Below the pieces are notes generated by a model that did no database searches, was not told the DNA's origin, and was given only the letters and a program-made list of their open reading frames with translations. A stretch of DNA of 49,655 nt from a virus: the IMG/VR virus record IMGVR_UViG_3300042503_002198, positions 1-49,655 of that record. One strand, 5' to 3'. Shown here piece after piece: positions 23,136-47,298 of the stretch. Made by a program: the position numbers and the translations under genes. Numbering within the stretch: the stretch's first letter is position 1; each line of letters starts with the position of its first letter.

Positions 23136-23141
23136 TACTTA
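23136..23141 (-). promoter_or_regulatory. late-promoter-like TAAGTA
   Basis: On the minus strand AATAAGTATT, 6 nt before the ATG at 23129, within the 25 nt gap after the hub gene. Matches the T4 late TATAAATA type with G at the fifth position. Confidence 0.6.
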
Positions 23142-23154
23142 TTAAAATTACAAT

Positions 23155-24738
23155 TTAAGCAATATTGTTTGGTTCGTATATTGTTGCAAAATAAACAGGT
23201 TTTTGAACATCTCCACCCATAAAAAATACCCAAACTTTTGAACCAACATGAGGAACCGAATTAAATCCCATAGTTCCTCCTGTTCTTGGACCAGCAAGAG
23301 AACCATATGCATCTGGGATTCTTGTTCTAATTACATTTTGTCCATTTGTAATTAATGATGCATCACCAGAAACTTCAGCCAATTTACCTAATTGGTCTAA
23401 TTGAGTTGTTTTATTATAAAAAACTTCACCGTCAATCTCTACTTTTGTTGAATCTATAGCCTCATATATTCCATTTGGATCTATACCAGGATCACCATAC
23501 TGTCCAGCATGAGCAGATCCGTTTGATACATTTGATCCTTGTAATGCTTGTTGAATCAAGCTATTATATTTTGAAATCTCTGCTTGAGTGAGACTACTTC
23601 TTGCTGCATCATATGAACCATTACTATAAACTCCAAAATAAGCTCTAGTGTTTACTGTATCTGTTAAAGTATCATTTTGTACATAACTTCTATTAAATAA
23701 AGTTTCAACAAAAGCTAACTGTGCAGCATCGTTTTGATTACCAACTTCAGATTTTATCAAACCATAAATTGTGTTTAGAGTTTCTGGGTTTGCTAAATCC
23801 TCCCCATACATTGATCTAATTTCAGATAAAATATCTGAAGCTGATCCAATTTTTTCTGTATCTCCTGTAACCCTTCCTTGTGGATCTGCTAATGCATCAA
23901 TTTCAACATCTCTTGTGTCTGCATATGCTTCAGTTGGAACAGTAGAAGGAGTTATAGATGGATCAACACCTATACCAGATCTAGCTTGAACGACCCAAGG
24001 AGTTGCACTAGAACTCGTAAAACTCCTTCCCCAATTTCTATTAGGATCTCCAACGTCCAAGTGAAAATTTGTTGTTCCTCCCATATATCCTGGTCCATAA
24101 CCAATACCACCAATACCTGCTTGTGTTAATTTATATAATGCATAAGCAATTCTTCCTTTATCTTCTTCGCTTGTTGTTGGATCAAGTTTTCTATATGGAT
24201 AAACAGATTCTGTGAAATAACCATCAGTTGCTTTTCCAAACAAATGTTGACTGTTTTCAGCTTGTCCAGCAGTAGAACCTGTTCCGCTATAACTGACCCA
24301 GTTTAGTCCTGTGCCTGATAAACCTCTAGCAATAACTCCTTGCAAGTCTGATCCCAAATCTCCTGATCTATCTCCGTTATGTTGTTGGCTTATTCTTCCT
24401 CCCCCTGCCCCTTCTTCAGGATAAATATAATTGAATCCTTGGTCGGTTGGTATTGGAGTTGGTGTTCCAGTACTAGCATTGGATGGTGCTCCAGTACTAC
24501 CACCCCAAAAAGGAACAGCAGCTTCTGCCCAAGGTAAATGTTTTTGTAGTCTGTCTTTTATTTCTGCTGAAAAACTTTTAGATTCAAAAGTTTTAAAACT
24601 TTTATTTTTTGCAGTTTCATTCCAATCTTTATATAAAGTAGGAGTTATATTAGGAACAAAAACTTGAACTCTTCCTCTTTTTTCTGGATCTGTTGTATTA
24701 ACAACAAGTCCTAAATAATTTCCAAAACATTTATTCAT
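23155..24738 (-). CDS. gp5: gp5-type baseplate hub with M15/DUF882-like peptidase and SleB-like hydrolase insertions
   Basis: 527 aa. Residues 5-30 (GNYLGLVVNTTDPEKRGRVQ) form the start of a gp5-type OB domain; its closing half is at the C-terminus (GTMGFNSVPHVGSKVWVFF, 488-506, then KPVYFATIY). Between them are two enzyme-like modules. Residues 160-240 contain SQHLFGKATD (S163, H165, G168, D172) and GIGYGP plus FHLDVGDP (H226, D228), the zinc motif of M15/DUF882 D,D- or L,D-peptidases. Residues 320-400 contain IKSEVG (E331) and AAQLAFVETLFNR, like SleB-type wall hydrolases. T4 gp5 has a lysozyme instead. It should open the peptidoglycan during tail penetration. Starts 6 nt after the upstream gene. 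Confidence 0.8.
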   Translation of the reverse strand: MNKCFGNYLGLVVNTTDPEKRGRVQVFVPNITPTLYKDWNETAKNKSFKTFESKSFSAEIKDRLQKHLPWAEAAVPFWGGSTGAPSNASTGTPTPIPTDQGFNYIYPEEGAGGGRISQQHNGDRSGDLGSDLQGVIARGLSGTGLNWVSYSGTGSTAGQAENSQHLFGKATDGYFTESVYPYRKLDPTTSEEDKGRIAYALYKLTQAGIGGIGYGPGYMGGTTNFHLDVGDPNRNWGRSFTSSSATPWVVQARSGIGVDPSITPSTVPTEAYADTRDVEIDALADPQGRVTGDTEKIGSASDILSEIRSMYGEDLANPETLNTIYGLIKSEVGNQNDAAQLAFVETLFNRSYVQNDTLTDTVNTRAYFGVYSNGSYDAARSSLTQAEISKYNSLIQQALQGSNVSNGSAHAGQYGDPGIDPNGIYEAIDSTKVEIDGEVFYNKTTQLDQLGKLAEVSGDASLITNGQNVIRTRIPDAYGSLAGPRTGGTMGFNSVPHVGSKVWVFFMGGDVQKPVYFATIYEPNNIA

Positions 24739-24744
24739 TTATTT

Positions 24745-26256
24745 TTAATCTTCATTAAAAACATTTTTTAATGAATCTCCAACTTTTCCTAAAAATTCGC
24801 TGGCTTCTTTTGAAAGATCGCTAAATCCTTGTCCAACATCTTGAAGATTGTCACCCACAGCACGAAAATTATTTTCTACGTTTAGTGAAATATTTCCTGG
24901 ATCCACAGGGGTTCCATATACATCTTCTCTTCCGCCGTTATAAAGATTTGGTCCAAGACTTGCAGCAGTTGGTGGGAAAAATGTTGCACCTTGTCCATAT
25001 CGACTCACAATTGCTGCTGATTTTGTTAAAATATTACCAAGAGGAGTTATTGCTCCATATTGTGGTCCATATTTATCAACCAACGCACCAATCAAATTGC
25101 CTCTTAAAGCAGTAGCAACCCAAGCATATCCATAATTTGAAAGTTGATCGGCCATATATCCACCAGGATCAGTTCCAATTTGATTTACAACATTTATAAT
25201 GTTTTGAACTTCTGGTGGCATATACGAAAAAACGGTTGTAAACGGGTTACTAACCAAATTAGAAGCAATATTAACAAAGTTTTGTATTGTATTTAGATAA
25301 TCTAAAAAAGGACCAGACATATTGAACAAAGATGTAAAAAAATTAATGTCATCCAAAACAACTTGAATAGTATCTAAAATTAAACATATTAAACGAATAG
25401 GAATAATTTCCTCAATTGCTTTCATTAACAATCTTTGCATTTCTGCTATGATTCCATTAATCCAAGCATATATTTTTTGTATATAAAATATAATTCCATT
25501 GTAAATGTCGTTTATAATTTTACTAAAAGATGCGATTACTCCTTGCAAACCAGCAACAATTCTACCCAAAGAACCAAAAGATCCTTTTGGCATAGACAAA
25601 TAGGCTCTAGTTCTAATGGTGTTGCAAAATTTTTCTAAATTTTCAACAGCTTCTGGGTGGATTTTGTTTAATAAATATTCTACTAAACTTGGTGTTGTTT
25701 TTTCTGGTCCAGTTATAGGATTATTAGACATATTACTAGCATTCATTTCTGTTGAACCTAGTTTTCCAATACCATCAAAACATCCTTTTTGCCATGCAGG
25801 AGTTTTTTTTAAAATTTTTGAAATTTCTGGTTGTCGAGCTAATGCTAAAAAGTCACTAATAAAAGCATCATCAATTATATATTTTTGTTGGCCTTGTATT
25901 GACGATTGTAAAACTTTATTATCAAAACCATAAACCAATAAAGCTAAAAGAAGATAATATTTATTTTTATTTAAATTTGTAAATTGATGTTTAATTTTGG
26001 CTAATTCTCCACCAAAAATATATGGATAAAGTGTAAGGTTTGTCTTTTTTTCTAGTTCTCTGATTTCTTCTCCTGTTACTGTTGTTTTAGAAACTGGTGT
26101 TGCAAATTTAGCTTCATTGTTTTGTATAGAAGTTGCTGCTGTTTGTGAAGCAGCTTGACCAGCAGATGTAGAATCTGCTATTAATTTTGATAATGAAGTA
26201 ACGTTTGGATCAAATGTATATGTTTTATTGCCAACCTTTACTGTTGTAGTAGCCAT
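24745..26256 (-). CDS. large tail/baseplate-associated protein, unrecognised
   Basis: 503 aa. N-terminal VGNKTYTFDPNVTSLSKLI, then helix-rich sequence with long hydrophobic helices (about 225-345, for example IINDIYNGIIFYIQKIYAWI and IPIRLICLILDTIQVVLDDI) and a glycine/proline/asparagine-rich C-terminal third ending FLGKVGDSLKNVFNED. No enzyme motif. It heads the operon that continues into the gp5-type hub (6 nt gap), so it is most likely a hub-associated or virion protein. Membrane insertion by the hydrophobic helices during infection is possible but speculative. Confidence 0.65.
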   Translation of the reverse strand: MATTTVKVGNKTYTFDPNVTSLSKLIADSTSAGQAASQTAATSIQNNEAKFATPVSKTTVTGEEIRELEKKTNLTLYPYIFGGELAKIKHQFTNLNKNKYYLLLALLVYGFDNKVLQSSIQGQQKYIIDDAFISDFLALARQPEISKILKKTPAWQKGCFDGIGKLGSTEMNASNMSNNPITGPEKTTPSLVEYLLNKIHPEAVENLEKFCNTIRTRAYLSMPKGSFGSLGRIVAGLQGVIASFSKIINDIYNGIIFYIQKIYAWINGIIAEMQRLLMKAIEEIIPIRLICLILDTIQVVLDDINFFTSLFNMSGPFLDYLNTIQNFVNIASNLVSNPFTTVFSYMPPEVQNIINVVNQIGTDPGGYMADQLSNYGYAWVATALRGNLIGALVDKYGPQYGAITPLGNILTKSAAIVSRYGQGATFFPPTAASLGPNLYNGGREDVYGTPVDPGNISLNVENNFRAVGDNLQDVGQGFSDLSKEASEFLGKVGDSLKNVFNED

Positions 26257-26267: not shown

Positions 26268-26273
26268 AACTTA
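26268..26273 (-). promoter_or_regulatory. late-promoter-like TAAGTT (weaker)
   Basis: Minus strand CTAAGTTTTT, 11 nt before the ATG at 26256. One mismatch to TAARTA. It faces away from the sigma70-like promoter at 26294-26321, giving a late/early divergent pair. Confidence 0.4.
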
Positions 26274-28896: not shown

Positions 28897-29514
28897 TTAT
28901 GTAGAACAAGACGATGAATCATCGACGTTTTTAACCAAGTTTACTCTAAGTTGATTAAATGAAAATGTCACAGAACAATTAATTTCAGACGGGTCTTGAT
29001 TAGAAAAATTTAATTCGCCAAGATTGGTTGGAAAAGCATTGTTATATTCAAAAGATATAATTTTATTGTTATATTCATCTAATCCATAAATCGTAAAAAT
29101 AGAAACGTACTCTCTTACAGGATTTTTTATGTAAGGATCTTTTATATTTGTATTTAACAAATCAGTTCCTTTGGTTATTTCTGATAATGATTTTTGTGCA
29201 TCATTAAACAAATTCATCCAATTCCACAAAACCCAATAATTTTTATAACCGTTATCAACTAAAAATTTTATTGTTAAAGGGTTGTATTCTGGTCTGGACA
29301 TTGATGATATTTTATGCACTTGCCCACCAAACGGAACTGACAAAGAAGGAACAGATATTTGTGGAACAGGTGATCCAAAAATAGATAATTGCAATGGTTC
29401 AATACTGAAAAATTTATCGGACGTTTCATCGTATTTCTTTTTCATGGCTGTTGGTAAATCCAAAACCAAAATAAATTTATCATTTCTAGATCTGTTTAAT
29501 GAAGGTTGAATCAT
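28897..29514 (-). CDS. tail-tube-fold protein
   Basis: 205 aa. LDLPTAMKKKYDE near the start, then VPFGGQVHKISSMSRPEYNP and the tube-type strand-helix TIKFLVDNGYKNYWVLWNWM; the C-terminal third has AFPTNLGELNFSNQDPSEIN and SVTFSFNQLRV. The same order of elements is seen in gp19-type tube proteins and in tube-initiator/terminator proteins. It starts 1 nt after terminase and runs into the gp27-like gene. A tail completion or tube cap role is likely, but which T4 gene it matches is unclear. Confidence 0.55.
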   Translation of the reverse strand: MIQPSLNRSRNDKFILVLDLPTAMKKKYDETSDKFFSIEPLQLSIFGSPVPQISVPSLSVPFGGQVHKISSMSRPEYNPLTIKFLVDNGYKNYWVLWNWMNLFNDAQKSLSEITKGTDLLNTNIKDPYIKNPVREYVSIFTIYGLDEYNNKIISFEYNNAFPTNLGELNFSNQDPSEINCSVTFSFNQLRVNLVKNVDDSSSCST

Positions 29515-29515: not shown

Positions 29516-31378
29516 TTAAAAAAGTACTACAGGTTTGAAGTCATCTGTCTTATATAACTTATCCAGAGATTCGGAATCTTCTTTTTTCTTTTCTGGTGTA
29601 TTTCCCCAATTTAAAAGCCAACCTTGTAGATTAGCTGCTTCTTGATCTAACCCCATTACTTGGTTTTCTTCTATTTTTCCGACAAAAGAAAAAGAAGCAT
29701 TGGGATTTACGGATTTTTTGAATGTTGATGCTTGACCATGAAACAAAGGACTTTTCTTGATTAATTCACTATTATCAACAATTGGTTGAATTTTTAAAGG
29801 TCTTCCCTGATCGTCGGTATCTATTATTTGATAATATTTTGTTGCTATAGATGGATCTAAAATAAATAAACCCCAAATTAATGCCAATACTCTATCATCT
29901 AAATCATCATCTTTTCTTTTACTAAAAGTATAATTTGGAAGTCTAACAAACGTTTCCAATTCTAATAATGTATCCAAATCAAATAATTTTACAGCTTTTA
30001 AACTATTTGCCCAATATCTAAAATTTGTTATTCCTTTATATCTAGTATTAGTGTGATTATGTATACCGAATCTGTTTTCGTTGTTATAATGCTGACTAAA
30101 ACCTTCAAACTTATAAGAAACTACAGATTCATAATTGTGAGTGTGACACAAAACATCTAATACTTGCTGTCCGTTATTGTTATTTTCAACTAATATTGGT
30201 GGACGGCCCCAATCATCTAAAACTCCCATTAAACGAGTTCCAAAATGATAAGGACTCATTTGGTTGTTTGCATAAATTGCAACTTGTCTAATATTTGTTA
30301 GATCTGAAACATCCAAAATTTGAGCAACTGTATTTGTTCTTCCGATTCCTTCGCCAACGTCAACTCCAATAGCATAAAAACTTTTAGGATTTGGCTCCTC
30401 AAAAATTTTATATGCACCATTATCCATTACTAATATTGGATCTTTACATTGGTTTTTTAATTCAGCTAAAAGTTCTGGATCTATTGCAGTTTTTCCTGGT
30501 TCATGGAATACGTTTCCAAATTCTTGATCGAAATCTTCTTTGGAACCCATTGCAGCAATTGTTTGGACTTTCCATTCTTCGTCTCGACCAGGAACATCAA
30601 ACCAATTTACTACCTCACAATGCCATTCTGCATTTTCTTTTTGTGAATCTTGATAAAGATCATAAAATTTATTATCAGTTCCATTAGGGGTACTAATAAC
30701 AACAATTTGTGATTTCTTAGAAGATGAAATAATTGGAATAGCAGACTTCCAAAGTTCTTTCATTAATTCATTTGGACAGTGTGCCATTTCATCAATAATC
30801 AAAAGATTACTAGTAGATCCGCGAGGACCAGCACTTGATGTTGTACTGATTGTAATTGCCGAATCATTAGCTAATAAAAAACCATCTTTTCTCCAAGACT
30901 TAACGCTAGGCTTCATCCAAATAGGAAGCTGTTCAAACGCCATTTTAATACGAGCAAATATTTCTTTTGCCGTTGATTCTTTATTTGCTACTATAGTAAT
31001 TCTCTTATCGCTTTGAAAGCACACGATCCAAAGAGCATATATTGTAATCGTGGTTGTTTTACCTGATTGACGCGAAGACAATACAACATTAAAACGATTA
31101 TTTTTAAATGCTTTTAAAAGACGCTTTTGATATTTGTATAGCTCAATTTTCTTTTTTCCTTCATCTAATGTGGTAATATAAAAATAATTTTCTGCAAAAT
31201 GTAATATACTTTTATTACATAACTTTAACTCATCGATCATCTGATCGGTCCATTTAAATTGAGAATTTCCTCTTAAAAGATTTTCATTCCCTTTATAAAA
31301 AGAAGCATCAACTAAAACATCATCTGTATTAAGTTGATCAAGGTTTGATTCTGTTTCTATTTTTTTCTTTCTTCCCAT
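29516..31378 (-). CDS. gp17: terminase large subunit gp17
   Basis: 620 aa (T4 gp17 is 610). ATPase domain: YKYQKRLLKAFKNNRFNVVL (adenine/Q motif), Walker A SRQSGKTT (102-109), Walker B LLIIDE (192-197, catalytic E197) and coupling motif ISTPNGT (228-234). Nuclease domain: YAIGVDVGEG (D340) and a later acidic DDLDDRVLALIWG, typical of the RNase H-like terminase nuclease. It pumps and cuts DNA during headful packaging. The start is set by the late promoter palindrome just upstream. It heads the operon terminase, tube-fold protein, gp27-like, zinc protein. No small terminase gene (gp16) was recognised nearby. Confidence 0.95.
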   Translation of the reverse strand: MGRKKKIETESNLDQLNTDDVLVDASFYKGNENLLRGNSQFKWTDQMIDELKLCNKSILHFAENYFYITTLDEGKKKIELYKYQKRLLKAFKNNRFNVVLSSRQSGKTTTITIYALWIVCFQSDKRITIVANKESTAKEIFARIKMAFEQLPIWMKPSVKSWRKDGFLLANDSAITISTTSSAGPRGSTSNLLIIDEMAHCPNELMKELWKSAIPIISSSKKSQIVVISTPNGTDNKFYDLYQDSQKENAEWHCEVVNWFDVPGRDEEWKVQTIAAMGSKEDFDQEFGNVFHEPGKTAIDPELLAELKNQCKDPILVMDNGAYKIFEEPNPKSFYAIGVDVGEGIGRTNTVAQILDVSDLTNIRQVAIYANNQMSPYHFGTRLMGVLDDWGRPPILVENNNNGQQVLDVLCHTHNYESVVSYKFEGFSQHYNNENRFGIHNHTNTRYKGITNFRYWANSLKAVKLFDLDTLLELETFVRLPNYTFSKRKDDDLDDRVLALIWGLFILDPSIATKYYQIIDTDDQGRPLKIQPIVDNSELIKKSPLFHGQASTFKKSVNPNASFSFVGKIEENQVMGLDQEAANLQGWLLNWGNTPEKKKEDSESLDKLYKTDDFKPVVLF

Positions 31379-31380: not shown

Positions 31381-31396
31381 TAATAAATATTTATTA
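31381..31396. promoter_or_regulatory. perfectly palindromic bidirectional late promoter
   Basis: TAATAAATATTTATTA is identical on both strands. It presents TAAATATT to terminase (minus; 9 nt between TAAATA and ATG) and to the small gene at 31402 (plus; 12 nt). It fills the whole 23 nt gap apart from flanking A/T bases. Confidence 0.6.
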
Positions 31397-31401: not shown

Positions 31402-31791
31402 ATGAATAATTCAGTCCCCCAAAACGAATATAATTTTTCTTTATGGAAATGCGACAAAGTTAACAAATATAAAAGTAAATGGCCGATATATGAATTAGAC
31501 AACTTACACAGTAAAGGGTTATGGTTAAAATTTAAAAATGTTTTAAAAAAACTAGAAGAAAATAAAAAATTACAAATTTTAAACGTAGAAGACATTGAAA
31601 ATTTTTATAATGATTATCCAGATATTGATTTTGAAATTAAAGTTTTTTCAAATGTTATGAAAAAAAATTATATTTTTAAACTTAAAAACAAAACATATTC
31701 ATATACAATTGGTTATAAAAGTAAAAGAAAAATATATGCTCGATTTTATTTTGATATTAATAATTTTTTTATCGATATAGCTGATTATTAA
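31402..31791 (+). CDS. small unknown protein divergent from terminase
   Basis: 129 aa. Lysine, tyrosine and asparagine rich; NVLKKLEENKKLQILNVEDI followed by alternating strand-like sequence IFKLKNKTYSYTIGY and FYFDINNFFIDIADY. No known motif. It shares a palindromic late promoter with terminase, so it is probably late, and its 3' end overlaps the convergent gp53-like gene by 23 nt. It is the only coding possibility in this region and fills it completely, which supports it being real. Confidence 0.55.
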   Translation: MNNSVPQNEYNFSLWKCDKVNKYKSKWPIYELDNLHSKGLWLKFKNVLKKLEENKKLQILNVEDIENFYNDYPDIDFEIKVFSNVMKKNYIFKLKNKTYSYTIGYKSKRKIYARFYFDINNFFIDIADY

Positions 31792-32134
31792 TTTCACTTA
31801 TTACAGCCCAAACTAATTCTTTTTTTAAAACTTTTATTTTTTTTCCAACTTCTGGTAATTGTGTAGGATTTTTAATTTGATTGTATTCACAAATAAGCCA
31901 CCACAAATCAATTGTATTATAAAATTTATAAGATATATAAACCCAAGTATCACCAGATTCAACCAGATATTCGTCTTCAGCAGAACTATCGTTTGCTGGG
32001 AAAATGTTAATAGATCTCAACAAATTATAATATTTGTTTTTGTATTCATCTTCATGAATATTAAAAAAATTTTCATATCTATAAAAAGATAATTTTGGTA
32101 AATCTTCAAAATCTGATTGTTTTTTTGTTATCAT
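31769..32134 (-). CDS. gp53: gp53-like baseplate wedge protein (LysM domain)
   Basis: 121 aa. Residues 1-50 have LPKLSFYRYENFFNIHE; residues 57-107 form a LysM-like module: YLVESGDTWVYISYKFYNTI then LWWLICEYNQIKNPTQLP and VGKKIKVLK. T4 gp53 (196 aa) also carries a LysM-like domain and is the last wedge protein to join, linking neighbouring wedges in the baseplate. The start overlaps the upstream stop by one base (TAATG), so it is translated with the gp48-like gene. It is shorter than T4 gp53, lacking part of the N-terminal region. Confidence 0.75.
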   Translation of the reverse strand: MITKKQSDFEDLPKLSFYRYENFFNIHEDEYKNKYYNLLRSINIFPANDSSAEDEYLVESGDTWVYISYKFYNTIDLWWLICEYNQIKNPTQLPEVGKKIKVLKKELVWAVISEINNQLYR

Positions 32135-33192
32135 TATTCAGTTTGTCCTTGTTGTTGGTTTTGTGGTGTATCGGTAGTTGTAGTTGCATTATAAATGCTG
32201 TTAATTTGATTTACACCAGCTTGAACGATTTGTTCTCCTTGTCTTATTATTTCTTCTGGTATTCCTGTAACTTCAATTTTTGTTCCTCCCATTGTACCAG
32301 CAAATATATTTGAACTTTGAGAAACCAGATCAGTAAATGTTATTGATACTTTATAAGCTTCTGGTATCAAAATTTCTTTTGATCCATAACCAAAAAAATC
32401 GCTCATTCTTCTTGTTGTTCCTATACTGTCTATTTTTAACTCACTGATATAAGCAGCAGCCATATAAACTCCACCCAAAGCTAAAGTATCAACAGTATAA
32501 ATTTTTGGAGGTATATAAGTCAACATAGATGTTCTCGTTTTTAAATTTTGAAATGTTATAAGTTGTACAAAAGAATAATGATCAAAGGCTGACTTCAAAT
32601 CAAAAGTGTTATATAACGGAAAAGTTACTTTTAAGCTTGCTGTATCTGTTTTTCCATATTGGTATGTTTCTTCATATCCAAAACCTGGTGTGATTGCACC
32701 TGTTATAAAACCCAAACCAGCACCAACAATATCACCAAAACCACCAGCGGTTCCTGCTTTATCTTCAAGATATTTAGCAACACCGTTTGCAGTAACCCAT
32801 TGATTTCTTACAGTTCGAATATTATCACCATTAGACAAAAGCAATGGGAAATTATATTGAAATCCTGTTTTTTCGGCAGCATATAAATTTAAATAAGAGT
32901 CTATATCCTTATTATTTACAAGATTTTGAAATTGTGTTAAAAATTGTAACAAATTAGCAGTCCAAACTCCATACCTTAAAACTCTTTCTGTAACCCAAAC
33001 AACAGGAACTTCATCTGTAGATCCTCCATTTTTCCATCGCATTTTATTCACCACATCAACAATGCCTGGTGGTTTTGGTTTTAATACAGGGTATGAATTT
33101 CCAACACCGCTAAATCCTAAAACTTGCAATTGTTGTGTCTCTGCTGTAAAAAAACTATTTTGAGCAAATGCTGAATTAATACCATTAGACAT
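32134..33192 (-). CDS. baseplate tail-tube cap, gp48/gp54-like
   Basis: 352 aa (T4 gp48 is 364, gp54 is 320). LKPKPPGIVDVVNKMRW, VTERVLRYGVWTANLLQFLT, then a glycine-rich stretch and a tube-like C-terminal domain: ASLKVTFPLYNTFD, YIPPKIYTVDT, YISELKIDSIGTTRR and IPEAYKVSITFTDLVSQSSN. This strand order and the 'IPxAYxVxITxxxL' end are typical of the tube-initiating proteins on top of the baseplate. Placed between tape measure and gp53 with its own late promoter; which of gp48 or gp54 it represents is uncertain. Confidence 0.6.
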   Translation of the reverse strand: MSNGINSAFAQNSFFTAETQQLQVLGFSGVGNSYPVLKPKPPGIVDVVNKMRWKNGGSTDEVPVVWVTERVLRYGVWTANLLQFLTQFQNLVNNKDIDSYLNLYAAEKTGFQYNFPLLLSNGDNIRTVRNQWVTANGVAKYLEDKAGTAGGFGDIVGAGLGFITGAITPGFGYEETYQYGKTDTASLKVTFPLYNTFDLKSAFDHYSFVQLITFQNLKTRTSMLTYIPPKIYTVDTLALGGVYMAAAYISELKIDSIGTTRRMSDFFGYGSKEILIPEAYKVSITFTDLVSQSSNIFAGTMGGTKIEVTGIPEEIIRQGEQIVQAGVNQINSIYNATTTTDTPQNQQQGQTE

Positions 33193-33200: not shown

Positions 33201-33206
33201 TACTTA
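33201..33206 (-). promoter_or_regulatory. late-promoter-like TAAGTA containing a stop codon
   Basis: Minus strand CCTAAGTATT, 8 nt before the ATG at 33192. The TAA is the stop codon of the tape-measure gene, so the promoter is embedded in the end of the upstream gene. Confidence 0.6.
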
Positions 33207-35579: not shown

Positions 35580-35602
35580 ATATAGTACTTATTGTACTAT
35601 AT
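35580..35602 (-). promoter_or_regulatory. late-promoter-like TAAGTA inside a perfect inverted repeat
   Basis: ATATAGTAC (35580-35588), 5 nt TTATT, GTACTATAT (35594-35602): a perfect 9 bp inverted repeat. The minus-strand TAAGTA (35591-35586) lies across its left arm and loop, 6 nt before the tape-measure ATG. Could be an operator, a transcript hairpin or a coincidence of AT-rich sequence. Confidence 0.5.
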
Positions 35603-38171: not shown

Positions 38172-38177
38172 TATTTA
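38172..38177 (-). promoter_or_regulatory. late-promoter-like TAAATA
   Basis: Minus strand CATAAATATTC, 5 nt before the ATG at 38166: among the shortest spacings in the set, predicting transcription start at the start codon itself. Confidence 0.55.
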
Positions 38178-38193: not shown

Positions 38194-38736
38194 TTATCTA
38201 GCCAATCTCCAATATTGATAAGCAAGAGTTGCTTGTTGTTCTAAGATTTCACCAGAACTTGTAAGATTTACAGCCAAATCTCCAATAGATTGACAGTAAC
38301 AACCAAACAAAGTATAGGTTCTTAATGGGTTACCTTCTTTATCAATCAAAACTAAAGTTGTTTGATTTGAAGCGTCTTTACTTGGAATATTATAAGCACC
38401 AGTACTTGTTGAATCATCAAATACTTGAGTTGTCCAATCTTCAAACTTTCTGCGAACAGAAAGACTTGATGGAACTCTAAATGTTACTTGCCAAGCACCA
38501 CTGTTTGGATAGTTTGCTGTACCTGGAACGTTAAACACAAGTCCCATAAATGGAACTGTAACGTTTGTAATTGCACGTCCTGGTAATGTTGTACTAGTAA
38601 TATATACTAATTCGTTGGTTGTGAATCTTACTCCTCCGAGAGAAATTACACGAAATAAATTTTGACGAGCAAAATCATTTGCGATTGCTGTATCGTAGAA
38701 GTTTTCGATGCCTTGTGTGTCTAATAATCCTGCCAT
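38194..38736 (-). CDS. gp19: tail tube protein gp19
   Basis: 180 aa (T4 gp19 is 163). ANDFARQNLFRVISLGG matches the gp19 N-terminal 'DFARPNLFxVxI'. YITSTTLPGRAITNVTVPFM then NVPGTANYPNSGAWQVTF and VRRKFEDWTTQVF follow the known strand-helix order, and FGCYCQSIGDLAVNLTSSGE with ATLAYQYWRL gives the final strands. It polymerises as hexameric rings to form the DNA conduit inside the sheath. Own late promoter; lies next to the sheath gene as in T4 (18-19). Confidence 0.85.
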   Translation of the reverse strand: MAGLLDTQGIENFYDTAIANDFARQNLFRVISLGGVRFTTNELVYITSTTLPGRAITNVTVPFMGLVFNVPGTANYPNSGAWQVTFRVPSSLSVRRKFEDWTTQVFDDSTSTGAYNIPSKDASNQTTLVLIDKEGNPLRTYTLFGCYCQSIGDLAVNLTSSGEILEQQATLAYQYWRLAR

Positions 38737-38747: not shown

Positions 38748-38753
38748 TATTTA
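38748..38753 (-). promoter_or_regulatory. late-promoter-like TAAATA of the tube gene
   Basis: Minus strand GATAAATATTA, 11 nt before the ATG at 38736, in the 36 nt gap after the sheath gene. Confidence 0.65.
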
Positions 38754-38772: not shown

Positions 38773-40962
38773 TTATCCAATAAGTTCAGAAAATTCTATT
38801 CCTGTTCTTGTTGCTATGAAGTCTGCCAAGATATATTCAGCAGTTCTTACTGGTTTGATATAAATTGAAATTCTGAGTTCATTATTATCAATTACATCTG
38901 GTGTATTGTTTCTTTCATCACAAACCAGTTGATAGTCATATAAACCATCATTAAGTTTAGCTTGATCAAACAGTGGTAATAAAGCACCCTTGAGTCTGTT
39001 TCTTGTTGCAAAAGAGTTTTGTTCAAACACGAAGTATTTTAACAATTCTTGTGTTTGTTTTTCAAGAACCAAGAACAATCTACGAACGTTAATTCGATCA
39101 AATGCTGATGGTTGACGATATAAGGTTTTTTGTCCAAAAATTACATAACCGTCATTCTTAAAGAATGCAACAGGGTTGATGTTAATTTTGTATAATAAAT
39201 CTCTTTGTTTTTGTGTTGGATTTACGGCCAAGTCACTAACCCCTAAGAGTGTTCCCCTACTAAAACCAGCAGGAGCAATCCAAGGATATGATTCTTGAGA
39301 TACCGATGCCATAATTGCTGCGGCATAACCAGACATTGGAACCCAAACATTTTTATCAATAAATGGATCGTTTGTGCTTACCCAGTTTCCGTATGTTGTA
39401 ACATAACTACTTTGAATAAATCCAAAAAGATTTTTCAAAGGCCAGTAAACATCATTTGAAAAGACATAATCTGTTTTATCAGATATTCTAGCGTTTTCAC
39501 CTTGAATAAATATATTTCTTAATGGGTCTGCAATAAACAAATGATTCTTTTTAGTTTGATCTGCAAACACTACAAATTGATTTACAATATCAGTATATGC
39601 TTGATATACTTGACCAGTAGGAAGAGAATTATCTTTAGAAGATAATCCAGCCAAATCTATATTATAATTTTCATCAAATATACCTTGATCGGTAAGCATT
39701 TCTTCGTTTCTTCCTTTGGTTGCGGCCCAAATTGTTCCTAAACCTGCTTCTGCAACAATATCAACATTGATAGTATCGTCATTTTCAAGTTTTCTAAGAA
39801 TTCTTTGAAGTTTTTGTGGAACATTTCCAACATCTTTAGATTTAAAATCTGTATCTGATGCATATACACCAGTTGAATAAAGATTTTTTGCTGCATTAGT
39901 CACACGAACTTTTTTGGCTGGTTGTCCAGTATTTGTTGTCCAAGCTCCTCTAGTAGAAACATAAGGATTAGTAAATGTTTTTATTAAGTTAGATTGTTTG
40001 TTGACAACAGTATCAATAAAGAAACTACTTGCTGGTCCACCGTTTGGATTGTTTTGTGTTCTTCTTTCATATAAAGAACCTGTAAATCCTTCTGATACTC
40101 CATAATCTAAAGTAACAGTATCTTGATTATATTGAGAAGTTTTAATTCTGAATACCATCAATACTAAACTGTCATCGAAAGCGTTACCATCAAAGTTATA
40201 ATCTTTAGGATAATTTTCAATTACTTTGGATATACTTGTTCCTCCAAATGATGAAAATGATTGATTTAAAGTAAATTTCAATCTACTTGATGGAATTGTT
40301 GTAAATGTTTGTTGTACACCATTAATTGCATTAACAGATTTTATAGAAGTTACGGCATTGAAATCTGTTGAAGGATTGATTTCTGAGTTATCTGTTAAAC
40401 TAACATAGTATCCTTCAAAAAGATTATTAACAGTAGTTTTAGCAGAGTTTAAAACAACCAAACCAGCCTTACCGATGTCTGCAAAACTTGTAATAGTTTG
40501 GTCGTTGGAATATGTAGAACTCCAAGTAATATTATTTTCTGTTAAAGTTTTATATTCTGCATCTGAAAGAAGCATGGAAACAGGCTCTCTCAAGTTAAAT
40601 TCTGTAGCACCTTCATATGTAGGAGCATTTGCAGAAAGTTGATAAACCAAAGCACTATATGTGTTTGCATAACCTTCTCCAGAACCAGAACCATAAGGAA
40701 CTCTGGATACTAATACATTAGCTGGAGAAGATAAAAGTAATTGTTTTGCTGAGTGATAAAGGTATCTCTCAGCAGCATTTTTTGGTGTTCCATAAACTTG
40801 CTCAAATTCAGATAAACTTGTGATATTAACAATGTCTTCTGTTGGTCCTTGATCAGCAAATCCTGTGATTAAAACATCAGTTGATCCAGATGGTCTAGAA
40901 ATAATACTGATGTCTTCTTCGTTAATTTGTACGCCTGGTGATGCTAATGTGATTTCTGCCAT
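38773..40962 (-). CDS. gp18: tail sheath protein gp18
   Basis: 729 aa (T4 gp18 is 659). N-terminus ASPGVQINEEDIS is the standard sheath opening 'SPGVxxxExD', followed by VLITGFADQGPTEDIVNITS with EFEQVYG and LLLSSPANVLVSRV. The C-terminal domain has WIAPAGFSRGTLLGVSDLAV, NINPVAFFKNDGYVIFGQKT and INVRRLFLVLEKQTQELLKY, which are the conserved sheath core used for interstrand contacts. The middle (150-400) is the variable surface region. It forms the contractile sheath around the tube. Late promoter 13 nt upstream. Confidence 0.95.
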   Translation of the reverse strand: MAEITLASPGVQINEEDISIISRPSGSTDVLITGFADQGPTEDIVNITSLSEFEQVYGTPKNAAERYLYHSAKQLLLSSPANVLVSRVPYGSGSGEGYANTYSALVYQLSANAPTYEGATEFNLREPVSMLLSDAEYKTLTENNITWSSTYSNDQTITSFADIGKAGLVVLNSAKTTVNNLFEGYYVSLTDNSEINPSTDFNAVTSIKSVNAINGVQQTFTTIPSSRLKFTLNQSFSSFGGTSISKVIENYPKDYNFDGNAFDDSLVLMVFRIKTSQYNQDTVTLDYGVSEGFTGSLYERRTQNNPNGGPASSFFIDTVVNKQSNLIKTFTNPYVSTRGAWTTNTGQPAKKVRVTNAAKNLYSTGVYASDTDFKSKDVGNVPQKLQRILRKLENDDTINVDIVAEAGLGTIWAATKGRNEEMLTDQGIFDENYNIDLAGLSSKDNSLPTGQVYQAYTDIVNQFVVFADQTKKNHLFIADPLRNIFIQGENARISDKTDYVFSNDVYWPLKNLFGFIQSSYVTTYGNWVSTNDPFIDKNVWVPMSGYAAAIMASVSQESYPWIAPAGFSRGTLLGVSDLAVNPTQKQRDLLYKININPVAFFKNDGYVIFGQKTLYRQPSAFDRINVRRLFLVLEKQTQELLKYFVFEQNSFATRNRLKGALLPLFDQAKLNDGLYDYQLVCDERNNTPDVIDNNELRISIYIKPVRTAEYILADFIATRTGIEFSELIG

Positions 40963-40975: not shown

Positions 40976-40981
40976 TATTTA
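40976..40981 (-). promoter_or_regulatory. late-promoter-like TAAATA of the sheath gene
   Basis: Minus strand GATAAATAGTA, 13 nt before the ATG at 40962. Same GATAAATA core as the tube promoter. Confidence 0.65.
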
Positions 40982-41040: not shown

Positions 41041-41046
41041 TAAGTA
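41041..41046 (+). promoter_or_regulatory. late-promoter-like TAAGTA
   Basis: ACTAAGTATATAC: 5 nt between TAAGTA and the ATG at 41052. Divergent from the sheath promoter across an otherwise featureless 89 nt AT-rich gap. Confidence 0.6.
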
Positions 41047-41051: not shown

Positions 41052-41330
41052 ATGAATAGCTTTGATTTAAAGGTTTCTACACTTTTAGAAGAAGCCGCAC
41101 GTTGTACAAAAGTTACAGGAAAAACATCATCCACATCAAAAGGTAAAAAATGGATGAAATGTGTTAAAAACCCAAAAGGTGGATATAAAAGAATTCACTG
41201 GGGACAAAAAGGTGTACGTGTAACAGGAAAATCTGGAAACACAAAACGAAAAAAATCTTTTCGCGCTAGACATAAATGTTCTAGTGCAAAACCAGGCACA
41301 CCACGCTACCAAGCTTGCAAAGATTGGTAA
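41052..41330 (+). CDS. small basic Cys/His protein, probable virion/DNA-binding protein
   Basis: 92 aa, very basic. N-terminal helix MNSFDLKVSTLLEEAARC resembles a T4-type capsid-targeting/prohead-protease signal (LEE followed by A). The rest has four Cys and aromatic/basic clusters: KKWMKCVKNPKGGYKRIHWG, GVRVTGKSGNTKRKKSFRAR and a C-terminal KPGTPRYQACKDW. I recall similar RIHWGQ...RARH...KPGT proteins in other T4-like marine phages, without a known function. Late-promoter-driven; the net charge suggests an internal head protein or DNA-associated protein. Confidence 0.65.
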   Translation: MNSFDLKVSTLLEEAARCTKVTGKTSSTSKGKKWMKCVKNPKGGYKRIHWGQKGVRVTGKSGNTKRKKSFRARHKCSSAKPGTPRYQACKDW

Positions 41331-41751: not shown

Positions 41752-42555
41752 ATGTCTAAAAAGAAAAGCCGTACCCGTACCAAAGACGAAAAAGTTTCCG
41801 TTGATAAAAAAATGGAAAGAACTAAAGATACATCTCCCTATGTTTTTCAAAGAGATAAAGTAGCCTTTGATTTTACAATTAAAGAATTACCTTGGACAGA
41901 AAAACAAAAACAATTAATTGAAATTCTTTTGGATAAAGATACTAGATGTGTATTTGTCGAAGGACCAGCAGGTGTTTCCAAAACAATCACTGCTGTTTAT
42001 GCTGCGTTAAATTTATTAAAAAATAAAAAAGTATCTGATATAGTCTTTGTAAGAAGTGCAGTTGAAAGTGCAGACAGTAAAATTGGTTATTTACCAGGAA
42101 CGATTGACGAAAAATTTGAGGCATACATGGTTCCTTTTATGGAAAAGTTAGAAGAGCTTCTCGATAAAGCATCAATTAATAGATTAAGAAACGATGAAAG
42201 ATTTAATGCAACTCCAGTGAATTATATTCGTGGTTTACATTGGGCAACAAAATGTGTAATTGTCGATGAATGCCAAAACATCAGTTTTAGAGAACTGATT
42301 ACAACAATTACAAGAATGGGTGAATTTTCAAAAATTATTTTTTGTGGAGATCCTATGCAATCAGATTTACCGGAAAATAAAGCTGGTGGTTTTTCTAGAA
42401 TATGTGATATATTTGCAGATGAAGAATCTAAAAAATTTGGAATTCATCATTTCGAATTTACAAAAGAAGATATTGTAAGATCTGAATTTGTAAAGTTTGT
42501 TGTAGAAAAATTAGAAAACGAAAAAAATACTTGGAAACCTTCCAATAATAAGTAA
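41752..42555 (+). CDS. phoH: PhoH-like ATPase
   Basis: 267 aa. The basic N-terminus (KKKSRTRTKDEK) is followed by the PhoH ATPase core: LPWTEKQKQLIEILL, Walker A GPAGVSKT (71-78), IVFVRSAVESADSKIGYLPG, Walker B VIVDECQN (169-176) and FCGDPMQSDLP. PhoH proteins are superfamily-1-like ATPases common in marine phages; their exact phage role is unsettled. The Walker A has Ser where most PhoH have Gly (GPAGTGKT). Lies 8 nt after the preceding small gene, and its stop codon forms part of the next late-like motif. Confidence 0.92.
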   Translation: MSKKKSRTRTKDEKVSVDKKMERTKDTSPYVFQRDKVAFDFTIKELPWTEKQKQLIEILLDKDTRCVFVEGPAGVSKTITAVYAALNLLKNKKVSDIVFVRSAVESADSKIGYLPGTIDEKFEAYMVPFMEKLEELLDKASINRLRNDERFNATPVNYIRGLHWATKCVIVDECQNISFRELITTITRMGEFSKIIFCGDPMQSDLPENKAGGFSRICDIFADEESKKFGIHHFEFTKEDIVRSEFVKFVVEKLENEKNTWKPSNNK

Positions 42556-42558
42556 ATA
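42553..42558 (+). promoter_or_regulatory. late-promoter-like TAAATA overlapping the phoH stop
   Basis: AGTAAATATAA: the TAA is the phoH stop; 5 nt then lead to the ATG at 42564. A full TATAAATA (42557-42564) also touches the ATG. Confidence 0.45.
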
Positions 42559-42563: not shown

Positions 42564-42746
42564 ATGAATAATAAACCACAATATTTAGCCGTGGAAAATA
42601 GACCAATCGCTTGCAGTTTTTGCGGAGCACATATTAACGGAAGAATTACAGATAAACAAGATTCTTCTAGTAAAGAAACTATAAAAGAATGTAGGTGGGT
42701 ATGTGGTAGATGCGGAAATTTAGTTAAAATTGGTGTAGTTAAGTAA
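42564..42746 (+). CDS. small zinc-ribbon protein
   Basis: 60 aa. Two CxxC pairs: CSFCGAHINGRITD near residues 18-31 and CRWVCGRCGNLVKIG near 43-57 (the second as CxxxCxxC). This is a treble-clef/zinc-ribbon-type mini-domain, usually for protein or nucleic-acid contact. It starts 8 nt after phoH and overlaps the next start by 1 nt (TAATG). Function unknown. Confidence 0.65.
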   Translation: MNNKPQYLAVENRPIACSFCGAHINGRITDKQDSSSKETIKECRWVCGRCGNLVKIGVVK

Positions 42747-43249: not shown

Positions 43250-43278
43250 TTGACATTTTTATTATTTTTTGGTAATGT
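43250..43278 (+). promoter_or_regulatory. strong sigma70-like promoter
   Basis: Consensus TTGACA (43250-43255), 17 bp, TAATGT (43273-43278), 6 nt to the ATG at 43285. Fills the 41 nt gap; best -35 in the window. Confidence 0.7.
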
Positions 43279-43284: not shown

Positions 43285-43713
43285 ATGAAAATTTTAAAAA
43301 TACCAAACAATTTAATTAAATCTACTGGTATTGTTGTTTTTATTTCTTTGTTGGGAGGTTTATCTTTTTATTTGATTGGATATAGCTTTTGGTCTGCTTT
43401 TATTTTATTTTTTGTGTTTCAGTATATTATTTTTTCTTTTGTTGGAAATTTAATTAACAGTTATTTTTTACAAAAAACAAAACAAAAAGAACTAGAATCT
43501 TTAGAACCATTATCCACTCTTTTAGAGTGTGCATATTGTAATAAACCAAACATCATGACCTTTTTCCCAAACGATAATGAAATGTTAGAAATGGAATGTG
43601 CATCTTGTAAAAAGAAAAATTCAATAAGAATTCAATTTGTTGTTGCTAGATTAACAGAACCATTGAATATTCCTAACGTTACTGGCATTCCTTTAATAGA
43701 AAACAAAGAATAA
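43285..43713 (+). CDS. membrane protein with zinc-ribbon C-terminal domain
   Basis: 142 aa. Two hydrophobic segments, about 15-33 (TGIVVFISLLGGLSFYLIG) and 35-55 (FWSAFILFFVFQYIIFSFV), form a helical hairpin in the inner membrane. The soluble part carries CAYCNKPNI and CASCKKKNS (CxxC ... CxxC), a zinc-ribbon-like module. Independent sigma70-like promoter, so probably early or middle. Function unknown; an inner-membrane anchor or superinfection/lysis-related role cannot be told from sequence. Confidence 0.65.
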   Translation: MKILKIPNNLIKSTGIVVFISLLGGLSFYLIGYSFWSAFILFFVFQYIIFSFVGNLINSYFLQKTKQKELESLEPLSTLLECAYCNKPNIMTFFPNDNEMLEMECASCKKKNSIRIQFVVARLTEPLNIPNVTGIPLIENKE

Positions 43714-44640: not shown

Positions 44641-44641
44641 T

Positions 44642-45004
44642 TTATTCGGTTGGTATTAAAATATAAACATTTGGAGAAACTAACTGTAAAGATACTGGAA
44701 GCTGTTTAATGCTTTTGATCGGTTCTTCAGGAGTAGGATTTATACCATTATACGCTTTCATAATATCACTCGCTTCCGTAGGAGTTAGTGGTACTTTCTT
44801 TTTTTGGTTTAAACATTGTGTAACTTTAGGATGAAGATGTTTTTTTTCGGTGTGAGTTTTTGCGACCAAATAAGGATTTTTACGATCTAATCCTGACCCA
44901 ACAATTCTACTCACCGTTTGATGATGAGCAGTTCCCGAATTGGGACTTAAAAGGTTTTTTTCTTTTTGACTTAATCCTAAATATTTTTTAAAGCTGAGAT
45001 CCAT
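44642..45004 (-). CDS. small unknown late protein upstream of gp14
   Basis: 120 aa. N-terminus MDLSFKKYLGLSQKEKNLLS with a lysine-rich amphipathic helix, then histidine/lysine-rich AKTHTEKKHLHPKVTQCLNQ and LTPTEASDIMKAYN, ending with a hydrophobic strand (LPVSLQLVSPNVYILIP). No motif recognised. Head of a two-gene late operon with gp14; its late motif lies 7 nt upstream and is separated from the upstream gene by a strong terminator. Confidence 0.55.
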   Translation of the reverse strand: MDLSFKKYLGLSQKEKNLLSPNSGTAHHQTVSRIVGSGLDRKNPYLVAKTHTEKKHLHPKVTQCLNQKKKVPLTPTEASDIMKAYNGINPTPEEPIKSIKQLPVSLQLVSPNVYILIPTE

Positions 45005-45011: not shown

Positions 45012-45017
45012 TACTTA
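45012..45017 (-). promoter_or_regulatory. late-promoter-like TAAGTA
   Basis: Minus strand TGTAAGTATAT, 7 nt before the ATG at 45004, directly downstream (in minus orientation) of the terminator. Confidence 0.55.
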
Positions 45018-45022
45018 CAAAC

Positions 45023-45051
45023 AAAAAACCCCGCGAAAGCGGGGTTTTTTT
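45023..45051. terminator. bidirectional rho-independent terminator
   Basis: A6, stem CCCCGC (45029-45034), loop GAAA, stem GCGGGG (45039-45044), T7 (45045-45051). All six pairs are G-C, flanked by A and T runs, so it works on both strands. On the minus strand it ends the acidic-protein transcript. It is the only GC-rich hairpin of this kind that I see in the window. Confidence 0.92.
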
Positions 45052-45069
45052 AATTTATTTCTTATTTAA

Positions 45070-45915
45070 TTATTTGTTATCGAACAGTGTTTTTCCAACA
45101 TGAACTGCACCAACGTCTTGTTTCTTACTTTGAAGTTTTTTGATTGCTGGTTCTGTGGAATGTTGTTTTAATTCACCATCAGCATCCTTTGCTCCTTTTG
45201 AGGTTTCTGCGTTCTTACTTGTAACTGGAACAGCACCCTTTACAACTTTATTTGATGGGTTATTCATTCCTTTGTTGAGTTTTTCACAATCAACCAAAGC
45301 ATGTCCTACGATTTCAGCTTCTACGGCTTCTTCTTTGACTTCGTCTTCTTCTCCCATTTCTTCCATTTCATTACCTTCTTCTTCTCCCATTTCTTCCATT
45401 TCATCGCTTTCTTCAGCTTCTTCTGTTGAAAGAACTCCACCTAAAAGATCATAAAGTTTTTGTGCTGTTTCACGATCCATTGAAATTGAGATTTCTTCTG
45501 AAGATTCTTCTTCTGTTTCATCATCAAATTCTTCTAAACCATTATCGGTTGAATCAGCATCAAATGTTGAATCAGGTTGAAGTGAATTATCTTCTGTTGA
45601 AAAATTAAATGCTTCTTCTTCTTGAAGAATTTTATTGTAAAGAACATCAAATGGATTACTATATGATGATTTTTCTAATTTTTTAGTTTGACCATCAGAA
45701 TTTTTTACACTGTGTTCTTTGTCTTCTTTGGCTTTTTCCATTTCACCATCTGCGTTTTCTGTTGCAGAATTTGGTTCAATGTCTTTTGCATTTTTTTCTG
45801 ATTCAGCATCACCAAAGGTTTTGCCTACTTGTTTTTTTGTTTCAGGTGCAATACCAGAAGATGTTTCTTCTTCGATTACTTTTAAATATGCATTTGCTAA
45901 TGGATCGTTCATCAT
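45070..45915 (-). CDS. highly acidic repeat-containing protein, probable head/core protein
   Basis: 281 aa, with two adjacent ATGs (45915 and 45912). N-terminus NDPLANAYLKVIEEE carries the I-E-E helix shared with other small proteins here. Extremely rich in E/D/S: a tandem unit with EMEEMGEE appears twice (about residues 171-190), matching a 33 bp DNA repeat. SISMDRETAQKLYDLLGGVL is the only segment that looks folded. No match to gp22 can be shown, but the composition and late promoter fit an internal scaffold/core-like head protein. Ends at the strong terminator, so it is probably abundant. Confidence 0.65.
   Translation of the reverse strand: MMNDPLANAYLKVIEEETSSGIAPETKKQVGKTFGDAESEKNAKDIEPNSATENADGEMEKAKEDKEHSVKNSDGQTKKLEKSSYSNPFDVLYNKILQEEEAFNFSTEDNSLQPDSTFDADSTDNGLEEFDDETEEESSEEISISMDRETAQKLYDLLGGVLSTEEAEESDEMEEMGEEEGNEMEEMGEEDEVKEEAVEAEIVGHALVDCEKLNKGMNNPSNKVVKGAVPVTSKNAETSKGAKDADGELKQHSTEPAIKKLQSKKQDVGAVHVGKTLFDNK
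45344..45404. repeat. two-copy 28 bp direct repeat in the acidic gene
   Basis: Identical 28 bp copies at 45344-45371 and 45377-45404, period 33 bp (11 codons), coding for the EMEEMGEE unit on the minus strand. It may expand or contract by slippage. Confidence 0.85.
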
Positions 45916-45928
45916 AATGTTATAATAT

Positions 45929-45934
45929 TATTTA
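45929..45934 (-). promoter_or_regulatory. late-promoter-like TAAATA of the acidic protein gene
   Basis: Minus strand GGGTAAATAATATT, 13 nt before the ATG at 45915. Confidence 0.55.
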
Positions 45935-45964
45935 CCCTTGTTTATTTCCATTTCTATAAAAAAA

Positions 45965-46447
45965 TTATTTCTTTTTATAACCACTTTTTTTCTTAACTGA
46001 TTTTACGCAACTTTCAAAACCTTCTGGGTTTTCTTTTTTTCCACCAGTTGACTTATTACAAACAGCCCAAGGATTTACTTTTTTTGATTCCATTTTGATC
46101 GATTCTGGTTCTTCCATATTATCGATATCATTAATATCAAACTCTTCAGATTGACCGCCTGATTCATATTCTTCTACTTGAGAAACATCTTGAATATTAT
46201 CTGTCACTACTGCAATTTTTTCTAATTGCCAAGGTTCTAAACGTGCTCCAGATTCTAAAGAATCTAAAAGGGATTTTGCATGTTTGCAAATAGCATAAAG
46301 ATTTGATTTAGCCATAGCTTCTTCTTCTCTTTCTGCTAAATGGTCACAGGAAAATGGTTGATCTTGTGGCATATCCATTTCAGCACTATCTTTCGATAAA
46401 ACGCTTGAATATGCATTTTCTAATAAAATTTGGTCTTTGCTTCTCAT
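45965..46447 (-). CDS. unknown late protein with CTS-like N-terminus
   Basis: 160 aa. N-terminus MRSKDQILLENAYSSVL (LLE then N-A-Y) parallels MNDPLANAYLKVIEE of the next gene. A helical middle (AMAKSNLYAICKHAKSLLDS, LEPWQLEKIAVVTDNI), an acidic stretch (EEFDINDIDNMEEPES), then a basic Cys-containing end (NPWAVCNKSTGGKKENPEGF, SVKKKSGYKKK). Not recognised. Own late promoter embedded in the nuclease gene; a probable virion or prohead component. Confidence 0.55.
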   Translation of the reverse strand: MRSKDQILLENAYSSVLSKDSAEMDMPQDQPFSCDHLAEREEEAMAKSNLYAICKHAKSLLDSLESGARLEPWQLEKIAVVTDNIQDVSQVEEYESGGQSEEFDINDIDNMEEPESIKMESKKVNPWAVCNKSTGGKKENPEGFESCVKSVKKKSGYKKK

Positions 46448-46452
46448 TAAAA

Positions 46453-47298
46453 CTATTTATAGTCTTCGATCAACATTTCGGATTCTTTTTGAAGACGTAA
46501 TGTTTCCATAAGCTCATAATTTTGTTTATTTGCAACCCAAACAATGTAAGATTTAGGAACTTTAAACGGAGAATTTTTTTCAATAATATATTGATAAAGA
46601 TTCAACTGAAGACTGTATTTGATATATTCACAATGAGACAAGTAATTTATGGGTTTTAAAAAAGTTTGATCTCTAGGATTTTTCTTTTTAATTTCTTTGT
46701 TTGTTTTATAATCAAAAATAACAAGTTCTTTTGTTTTTTTATTATATGAAAGATTGTCGATAGTTCCACAAATACCAGATTCTTCATCACCAACCACAAA
46801 TTCAGATTTTATCAAAATATGATCTTTTTTCCACCAATCATAAAAATTTAAAAAATTTTTAATTAGATGAGCAAGTTCTTTATAGTATTCGTTTATAGAT
46901 GTTTCTTTATTAAAGAACTTTGTATTAGAATCATAAAAACTTTTTAATGCTTCTACATTTATTGTTAATTGTTTTCTATTAAAATAATTTTCAACAAATA
47001 AATGAAACTCTGATCCTTTGTGACAAGAATAATTTTTTGCGAATTCCCATTCGGATAAAACTTGCTCTACTGATTTTTGATCTCTTTCAGCAACATATTC
47101 TGCAATTTTTTGAGATTCGAAAGGTTTCTCGAATGCTTTTAATAAACCAGAAACAGATTCTTTAGCAGGTTTATCTTTGATTGTGTATGTATGATTTTTA
47201 TCAAAAAATTTTATGTGAGAGAAAGAATCCTCCAATAAAATTAAATCATCAAACTCCAAATCCAATTTGTTTGGATTTTTCTTTTTTAGTGTCTCCAT
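46453..47298 (-). CDS. PD-(D/E)XK exonuclease (RecB/Cas4-like)
   Basis: 281 aa. Catalytic order intact: LIKSEFVVGDEESGICGTID (E of motif I and the D in GTID, about 162-181), IFDYKTNKE (D-x-K, about 194-202) and YSLQLNLYQYIIEK (Q/Y motif, about 227-240). This is the lambda-exo/RecB nuclease fold; it also has GSEFHLFVENYF with a helical start like Cas4/MGME1 proteins. It probably trims DNA ends in recombination or degrades host DNA. The start overlaps the AAA+ gene by 50 nt, so the two are co-translated and likely co-functional. C-terminal codons carry a late promoter for the next gene. Confidence 0.8.
   Translation of the reverse strand: METLKKKNPNKLDLEFDDLILLEDSFSHIKFFDKNHTYTIKDKPAKESVSGLLKAFEKPFESQKIAEYVAERDQKSVEQVLSEWEFAKNYSCHKGSEFHLFVENYFNRKQLTINVEALKSFYDSNTKFFNKETSINEYYKELAHLIKNFLNFYDWWKKDHILIKSEFVVGDEESGICGTIDNLSYNKKTKELVIFDYKTNKEIKKKNPRDQTFLKPINYLSHCEYIKYSLQLNLYQYIIEKNSPFKVPKSYIVWVANKQNYELMETLRLQKESEMLIEDYK
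46454..46461 (-). promoter_or_regulatory. exact T4-type late promoter TATAAATA
   Basis: Minus strand ACTATAAATAGTT, 6 nt between TAAATA and the ATG at 46447. The TAG stop of the nuclease gene (46455-46453) is its last bases. Confidence 0.7.

Follow-up and report, generated by a model that had tools for sequence, protein, structure and literature searches.

Probable TAARTA late-promoter boxes placed close to start codons predict leaderless or near-leaderless late mRNAs in an uncultured clade of T4-like phages

The late-promoter box of bacteriophage T4, TATAAATA, spans positions -13 to -6 relative to the transcript start (PMC1524935). The T4 sites lie 13-34 nucleotides (nt) upstream of the ATG and nearly all are then followed by a Shine-Dalgarno (SD) sequence, in agreement with the statement of the initial annotation that canonical T4 late mRNAs have leaders. 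Leaderless phage transcripts have been described in the Thermus phage phiYS40, whose middle and late transcripts mostly lack a leader and for which a raised IF2/IF3 ratio has been proposed (PMC3594737). In bacteria, a TA-like -10 signal some 10-12 bp upstream of the start codon is accepted as an in silico sign of leaderless genes (Zheng et al. 2011, PMC3160421). Here we analyze the IMG/VR virus record IMGVR_UViG_3300042503_002198 (49,655 bases, 30% G+C; this whole stretch is referred to as the window, or G000), in which the motif TAARTA precedes the ATG of many genes at a distance of 5-13 nt. Our reading, to which we assign a probability of roughly 85%, is that TAARTA represents the late box of a T4-type system, placed for leaderless or near-leaderless late mRNAs in a clade of uncultured phages.

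The left side of the window encodes T4-type gp46, gp43, UvsX, gp41 and gp32, and the right side gp17, gp18, tail-tube and baseplate proteins. The closest named terminase matches are only 38% identical, which places all cultured phages at a distance. The nearest relatives are uncultured contigs, among them seven long ones (G001-G007, 163-226 kb), which were analyzed over their full length; a second viral scan with a terminase alignment as the query yielded mostly loci that had already been found. Gene starts in the relatives were assigned mechanically (first ATG), and d denotes the number of nucleotides between the end of the box and the ATG. The chance expectation was obtained from dinucleotide shuffles (200 for the window), with letter-permuted hexamers serving as a second control.

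The scan against shuffled controls proposed in the initial annotation revealed a clear enrichment of TAARTA before gene starts, both in the window and in its relatives. In the window, 16 genes carry the motif at d=5-13 (expected 2.1, maximum of 6 in the shuffles) and two in the control region d=35-43. The seven relatives contain 64, 69, 59, 46, 60, 45 and 51 such genes (expected 6.4-9.6), while identical code detected no excess in T4 (5 genes vs 5.4 expected). As many as 8 of the 11 TAAGTA hexamers of the window (both strands) are followed, after 5-13 nt, by the ATG of an open reading frame with 60 codons or more; with 73% so placed, TAAGTA ranks first among its 60 letter permutations (runner-up 14%), and TAAATA (11/95 so placed) is the first of its 15. 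The clade genomes are A+T-rich and tightly packed (30-32% G+C, coding density of 92-97%), and the TAA stop of the preceding called gene does form a minority of the boxes; the motif might accordingly be viewed as a by-product of upstream stops followed by A/T-rich sequence. However, such stops account for just 2/17, 6/70, 9/81, 7/65 and 4/55 sites (approximately 7-12%), and neither the dinucleotide shuffles nor the permuted hexamers reproduce the enrichment, which excludes chance or A+T composition as the source of the motif and makes the by-product explanation almost certainly wrong.

The sites of the window are as follows (coordinates of the box, strand, distance to the ATG, and number of orthologues preceded by the box):

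15278-15283, plus strand: TAAATA box, d=6 to 15290-16177 (DHH phosphoesterase-like, replication half); 4 of 4 relatives, at 5-6 nt.
19578-19583, plus strand: TAAGTA box, d=10 to the ATG of 19594-19983; just 3 of 19.
23136-23141, minus strand: TAAGTA box, d=6 to the ATG of 21048-23129; 4 of 10.
26268-26273, minus strand: TAAGTT, doubtful, d=11 to the ATG of 24745-26256; TAAGTT is not enriched before starts.
31384-31389, plus strand: TAAATA box, d=12 to the ATG of 31402-31791; 6 of 7.
31388-31393, minus strand: TAAATA box, d=9 to gp17 (large terminase, 29516-31378); 39 of 43, with TAARTA at 3-15 nt.
33201-33206, minus strand: TAAGTA box, d=8 to the ATG of 32134-33192; start not alignable in relatives.
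35586-35591, minus strand: TAAGTA box, d=6 to the ATG of 33204-35579; 8 of 10.
38172-38177, minus strand: TAAATA box, d=5 to the ATG of 37450-38166; 5 of 8.
38748-38753, minus strand: TAAATA box, d=11 to tail tube gp19 (38194-38736); 21 of 25.
40976-40981, minus strand: TAAATA box, d=13 to tail sheath gp18 (38773-40962); 21 of 22.
41041-41046, plus strand: TAAGTA box, d=5 to the ATG of 41052-41330; 13 of 14.
42549-42558, plus strand: two overlapping boxes, TAAGTAAATA, d=9 and d=5 to the ATG of 42564-42746; 5 of 5.
45012-45017, minus strand: TAAGTA box, d=7 to the ATG of 44642-45004, between a terminator and the ATG.
45929-45934, minus strand: TAAATA box, d=13 to the ATG of 45070-45915; 4 of 4.
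46454-46459, minus strand: TAAATA box, d=6 to the ATG of 45965-46447; 2 of 3, at 6 nt.

The 13 sites listed in the initial annotation all proved correct in coordinate and spacing, and two boxes (15278 and 19578) had been overlooked. The proposal that TAAGTT at 26268 is a further late-promoter site was not upheld, as only one of the 48 TAAGTT hexamers of the window is so placed, which gives no support to TAAGTT as a class of sites.

The boxes had been placed at operon heads of structural genes, which agrees with both the bias in gene class and the retention of the motif at orthologous starts. Boxes precede 10 of the 17 structural genes of the window but only 2 of the 18 replication/early genes (P = 0.0045, Fisher test). 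Among distinct orthologues, TAARTA was found before 39/43 genes for gp17, 21/22 for gp18, 21/25 for gp19 and 13/14 for the gene starting at 41052. Operon-internal neighbours lack the box: it precedes 1/55 orthologues of the second tail-tube gene, 3/46 of the 31769 gene and 1/37 of the 23155 gene. The window encodes two different tail-tube-like proteins (28897-29514 and 38194-38736), both assigned to phrog_45; only the second is preceded by a late box. Between gp17 and the gene starting at 31402, the palindrome TAATAAATATTTATTA (31384-31393) comprises two overlapping late boxes directed oppositely, and this two-way arrangement is kept in relatives as TATAAGTATTTATTA. The bases before the TAARTA core are variable, as has also been reported for other T4-like phages (PMC1524935); variants of the T4 octamer at its first position are known. 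No bases are conserved upstream of the box, i.e. there is no -35 element.

The initial annotation called for a search for a gp55-type sigma gene. Such a gene (phrog_234) is encoded in all seven long relatives, with E values of 4e-29 to 7e-27, and is absent from the window. The gene order in G001, uvsY-uvsW-gp55-gp47 (gp55 at 152110-152848), is T4-like. The landmark for comparison is:

5874-7670, plus strand: gp46 (SbcC-like), left part of the window.

Because the genes to the left of gp46 match the gp47-gp46 interval of G001, synteny would place the window's own gp55 a few kb further left, outside the sequence. Taken together, the gene-class bias, the conservation and the relatives' sigma gene support a putative gp55-type late-promoter role for TAARTA. 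A lid domain of the clamp loader gp44 was found in the seven relatives, above the cut-off in six. One candidate for gp45 (L090:9352-10023 in G001) was discarded, since its sequence reads as a gp21-type prohead protease.

Several other features of this part of the genome were recorded. The genes to the left of gp46 in the window (2982-5859) are glucosyltransferase- and methyltransferase-like, and the G001 counterpart comprises glycosyltransferase genes between gp47 and gp46. G001 also encodes adenylosuccinate synthetase, IMP dehydrogenase and a B12-type ribonucleotide reductase (L084:824-1765 and others), in a T4-like phage.

The distribution of box-to-ATG distances provides the main clue to the predicted transcript start. 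Pooled over the seven relatives, the number of genes rises from 8 (d=4) to 72 (d=5), 106 (d=6) and 66 (d=7), followed by 38 (d=8) and then falling values; no comparable distance peak was found in reversed control sequences. At the modal distance the box starts 11-13 nt before the ATG. Since the T4 box occupies -13 to -6, +1 would coincide with the first base of the ATG at d=5, and the onset at d=5 is the position to be expected if transcription must not begin within the gene. The slightly raised counts at d=6, 12 and 15 arise in part from gene calling: TAA is in frame at these distances and blocks upstream extension. This effect cannot yield the onset at d=5, nor the high counts at 5 and 7. 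Among the sites with d=12-15, 66% have an A as the sixth base past the box, which suggests that these transcripts begin a few nt before the ATG. The leaderless late mRNAs proposed in the initial annotation thus need a distinction: sites with d=5-7 (approximately 60%) predict leaders of 0-2 nt, and for the remainder (d=8-13) the predicted leaders measure some 3-8 nt.

All these distances depend on the gene starts, which were set mechanically at the first ATG; if the real starts lay further downstream, TAARTA could be an ordinary late promoter with normal leaders. This is highly improbable, since residues are conserved from codon 2 onwards in gp17, gp18, gp19 and further proteins, even among divergent orthologues (the N-terminus of gp19, MAGLL..QGIENFYD, is a clear example), the 5-7 nt peak recurs across seven genomes, and the clade genomes show little SD signal.

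An indirect constraint on leader length comes from the gene at 44642-45004, which is preceded by the following element:

45023-45050, minus strand: Rho-independent terminator, CCCCGCTTTCGCGGGG-TTTTTT, with the T-run ending 18 nt before the ATG of 44642-45004.

The terminator is perfect and lies on the gene's own strand, with TAAGTA in the gap to the ATG. An equivalent terminator-box-ATG layout occurs in G001, G003, G005, G006 and G007, with differing stem sequences and 15-23 nt between the end of the T-run and the ATG. As the T-run lies just upstream of the box, the leader of this gene is limited: judging from this arrangement, its mRNA must start within approximately 20 nt of the ATG, unless the terminator is read through.

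The late genes lack an SD sequence, as had been predicted; transcripts beginning 0-8 nt before the ATG would have no place for one, and SD-like words in the region -20 to -5 are close to the shuffle expectation in G000-G004 (2, 21, 22, 13 and 26 genes, respectively; 2-15 expected). The excess is highest in G004, reaching approximately twofold, and in T4 such words occur in 135 genes vs 37 expected. The claim that the layout is tied to the late regulon was only partly borne out. The late boxes conform to it, but a second promoter class, TTGACA-N17-TANNNT, shares the same placement and SD sequences are lacking genome-wide. In the window this non-late class is represented by:

43250-43278, plus strand: sigma70-type promoter, TTGACA-N17-TAATGT, 6 nt before the ATG of 43285-43713.

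Pooled counts of genes with this promoter are 2 (d=5), 31 (d=6) and 18 (d=7), an onset 1 nt later than that of TAARTA. The sigma70 -10 hexamer occupies -12 to -7, and a shift of 1 nt is what would be expected for a hexamer ending at -7. The two classes avoid one another, both being present in 3 genes vs 18.7 expected. Five short genes at 875-2093 and 225232-225451 of G002 are each preceded by a near-identical promoter, TTGACACCTCCTCCTAAAGCATATAGAATAAGATT-ATG, and form a repeated family at the contig ends.

The position of TAARTA, where ribosome contacts would fall, together with the absence of SD sequences, which is known from host groups (PMC6847099, PMC3155529), could also mean that the motif is a translation-initiation signal, i.e. 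an A-rich, Kozak-like context comparable to that of Bacteroidota without SD, with transcripts starting further upstream. Such a signal should serve every translated gene, yet the co-transcribed genes mentioned above (second tail-tube gene 1/55, 31769 3/46, 23155 1/37) lack it, and another gene class has TTGACA-N17-TANNNT in its place. Moreover, the motif corresponds to the gp55 box, its abrupt rise at d=5 agrees with T4 promoter geometry, and at 44642 a terminator lies immediately before the box. The promoter of Bacteroidota, TAnnTTTG, is not enriched. We consider this explanation unlikely, and the late-promoter reading of TAARTA is retained below.

According to this reading, TAARTA would be a variant of TATAAATA read by the host RNA polymerase together with a gp55-type sigma. 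The polymerase with gp55 would open the DNA at TAARTA and initiate 5-7 nt past the box, at or beside the start codon, so that the transcript start would fall on, or within approximately 8 nt of, its A. The late mRNAs would then be leaderless, or would carry the short leaders without SD described above, and they would be translated by recognition of the 5'-AUG or by some other SD-independent route provided by the host. We infer that gp55 reads TAARTA, that the T4 box-to-start spacing holds in this clade, and that these mRNAs are translated in such a mode.

Several observations weigh against this reading. The window, a fragment, lacks a gp55 gene of its own. Neither gp33 nor gp45 gave a match to the available profiles, which leaves clamp-dependent activation putative. 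The sites with d=8-13 would predict short leaders, not strict leaderlessness. Finally, operon-internal genes also lack SD sequences; host initiation can therefore not depend on leaderless starts alone, and the host would also need another SD-independent start route for these genes.

As the sigma70-type class is equally placed, the layout appears to be the whole expression strategy of the phage, and probably of its host. It thus probably reflects the translation habits of the host and not a late-specific device. We lean slightly towards a still broader proposal, namely that the whole T4-type clade has moved both promoter classes onto the start codons, nearly every operon being leaderless, that the host initiates at the 5'-AUG, and that cultured pelagimyophages represent an intermediate state.

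Attempts to identify the host gave negative results. A host from the Bacteroidota, with TAnnTTTG promoters, was rejected for the lack of enrichment noted above, and a search for WhiB, indicative of an actinobacterial host, gave no match above the cut-off. One-piece transfer-messenger RNA (tmRNA) genes are present in G001 (65196-65653, minus strand) and G004 (683-1144), with the tag ADEEMLLAA according to ARAGORN; the frame upstream of this tag is open for approximately 35 codons, so that the actual tag may be unusually long. Neither the tmRNA sequence nor the terminase matched GTDB contigs, and comparison of the tmRNA with phage and plasmid collections gave only short matches at the 3' end. 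The layout itself offers a clue, as it points to a host with little SD use and TTGACA/TANNNT promoters.

Compared with T4 (Straboviridae), the clade shares an A/T box at the heads of late operons, the lack of a -35 element, and a gp55 homologue in the relatives. It differs in that TAAGTA is a common variant, the box lies 5-13 nt before the ATG vs 13-34 nt in T4, SD sequences are lacking, and gp33 and gp45 are unrecognised by profile. The canonical T4 late form, with the box approximately 20-30 nt upstream and an SD sequence between box and ATG, is not the form seen at the boxes of the window. The boxes of Melnitz and P-SSM2 are also mostly located 22-34 nt upstream, and no peak at 5-7 nt was found in RM378 and Atu_ph04 (50 kb read). 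Late transcription in T4 is a textbook example, and in this clade the same sigma and box seem to have been remodelled for leaderless initiation throughout genomes of 160-226 kb, which illustrates how phage promoters adapt to the host's way of starting translation.

The two signs of leaderless genes used for bacteria (PMC3160421), i.e. the position of a TA-like signal and the lack of SD, were both found in this clade. Unlike in those bacterial genes, where the box is the -10 element of the host sigma70, the majority class here is a phage late box. A leaderless late regulon had been considered unusual. A precedent exists in phiYS40, which likewise has leaderless late mRNAs (predicted from sequence in the present case), although phiYS40 is not T4-type, whereas the late class of the clade has a gp55-type box and shares its layout with a sigma70-type class. 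The open-access literature searched (subscription papers were outside the search) contained no description of a leaderless late regulon in a T4-type phage, and within this literature the T4-type version with gp55 appears to be new.

A parallel among cultured phages is provided by two SAR11 pelagimyophages (Kyanoviridae), in which TAAATA occurs at exactly d=5 in a minority of late genes, 11 in HTVC008M (0.5 expected; the DNA end protector gene at 18392-18916, minus strand, is an example) and 5 in Mosig (0.4 expected). In contrast to the clade, most other late boxes of these two phages lie at least 16 nt upstream, with ordinary leadered genes alongside, and SD use in HTVC008M is wide (83 genes vs 29 expected). 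Prediction of late promoters in pelagimyophages has been attempted without success (PMC7029224); the placement of TAARTA provides a rule for finding late genes in uncultured T4-like phages, and the d=5 subsets of HTVC008M and Mosig make the idea testable in cultured phages.

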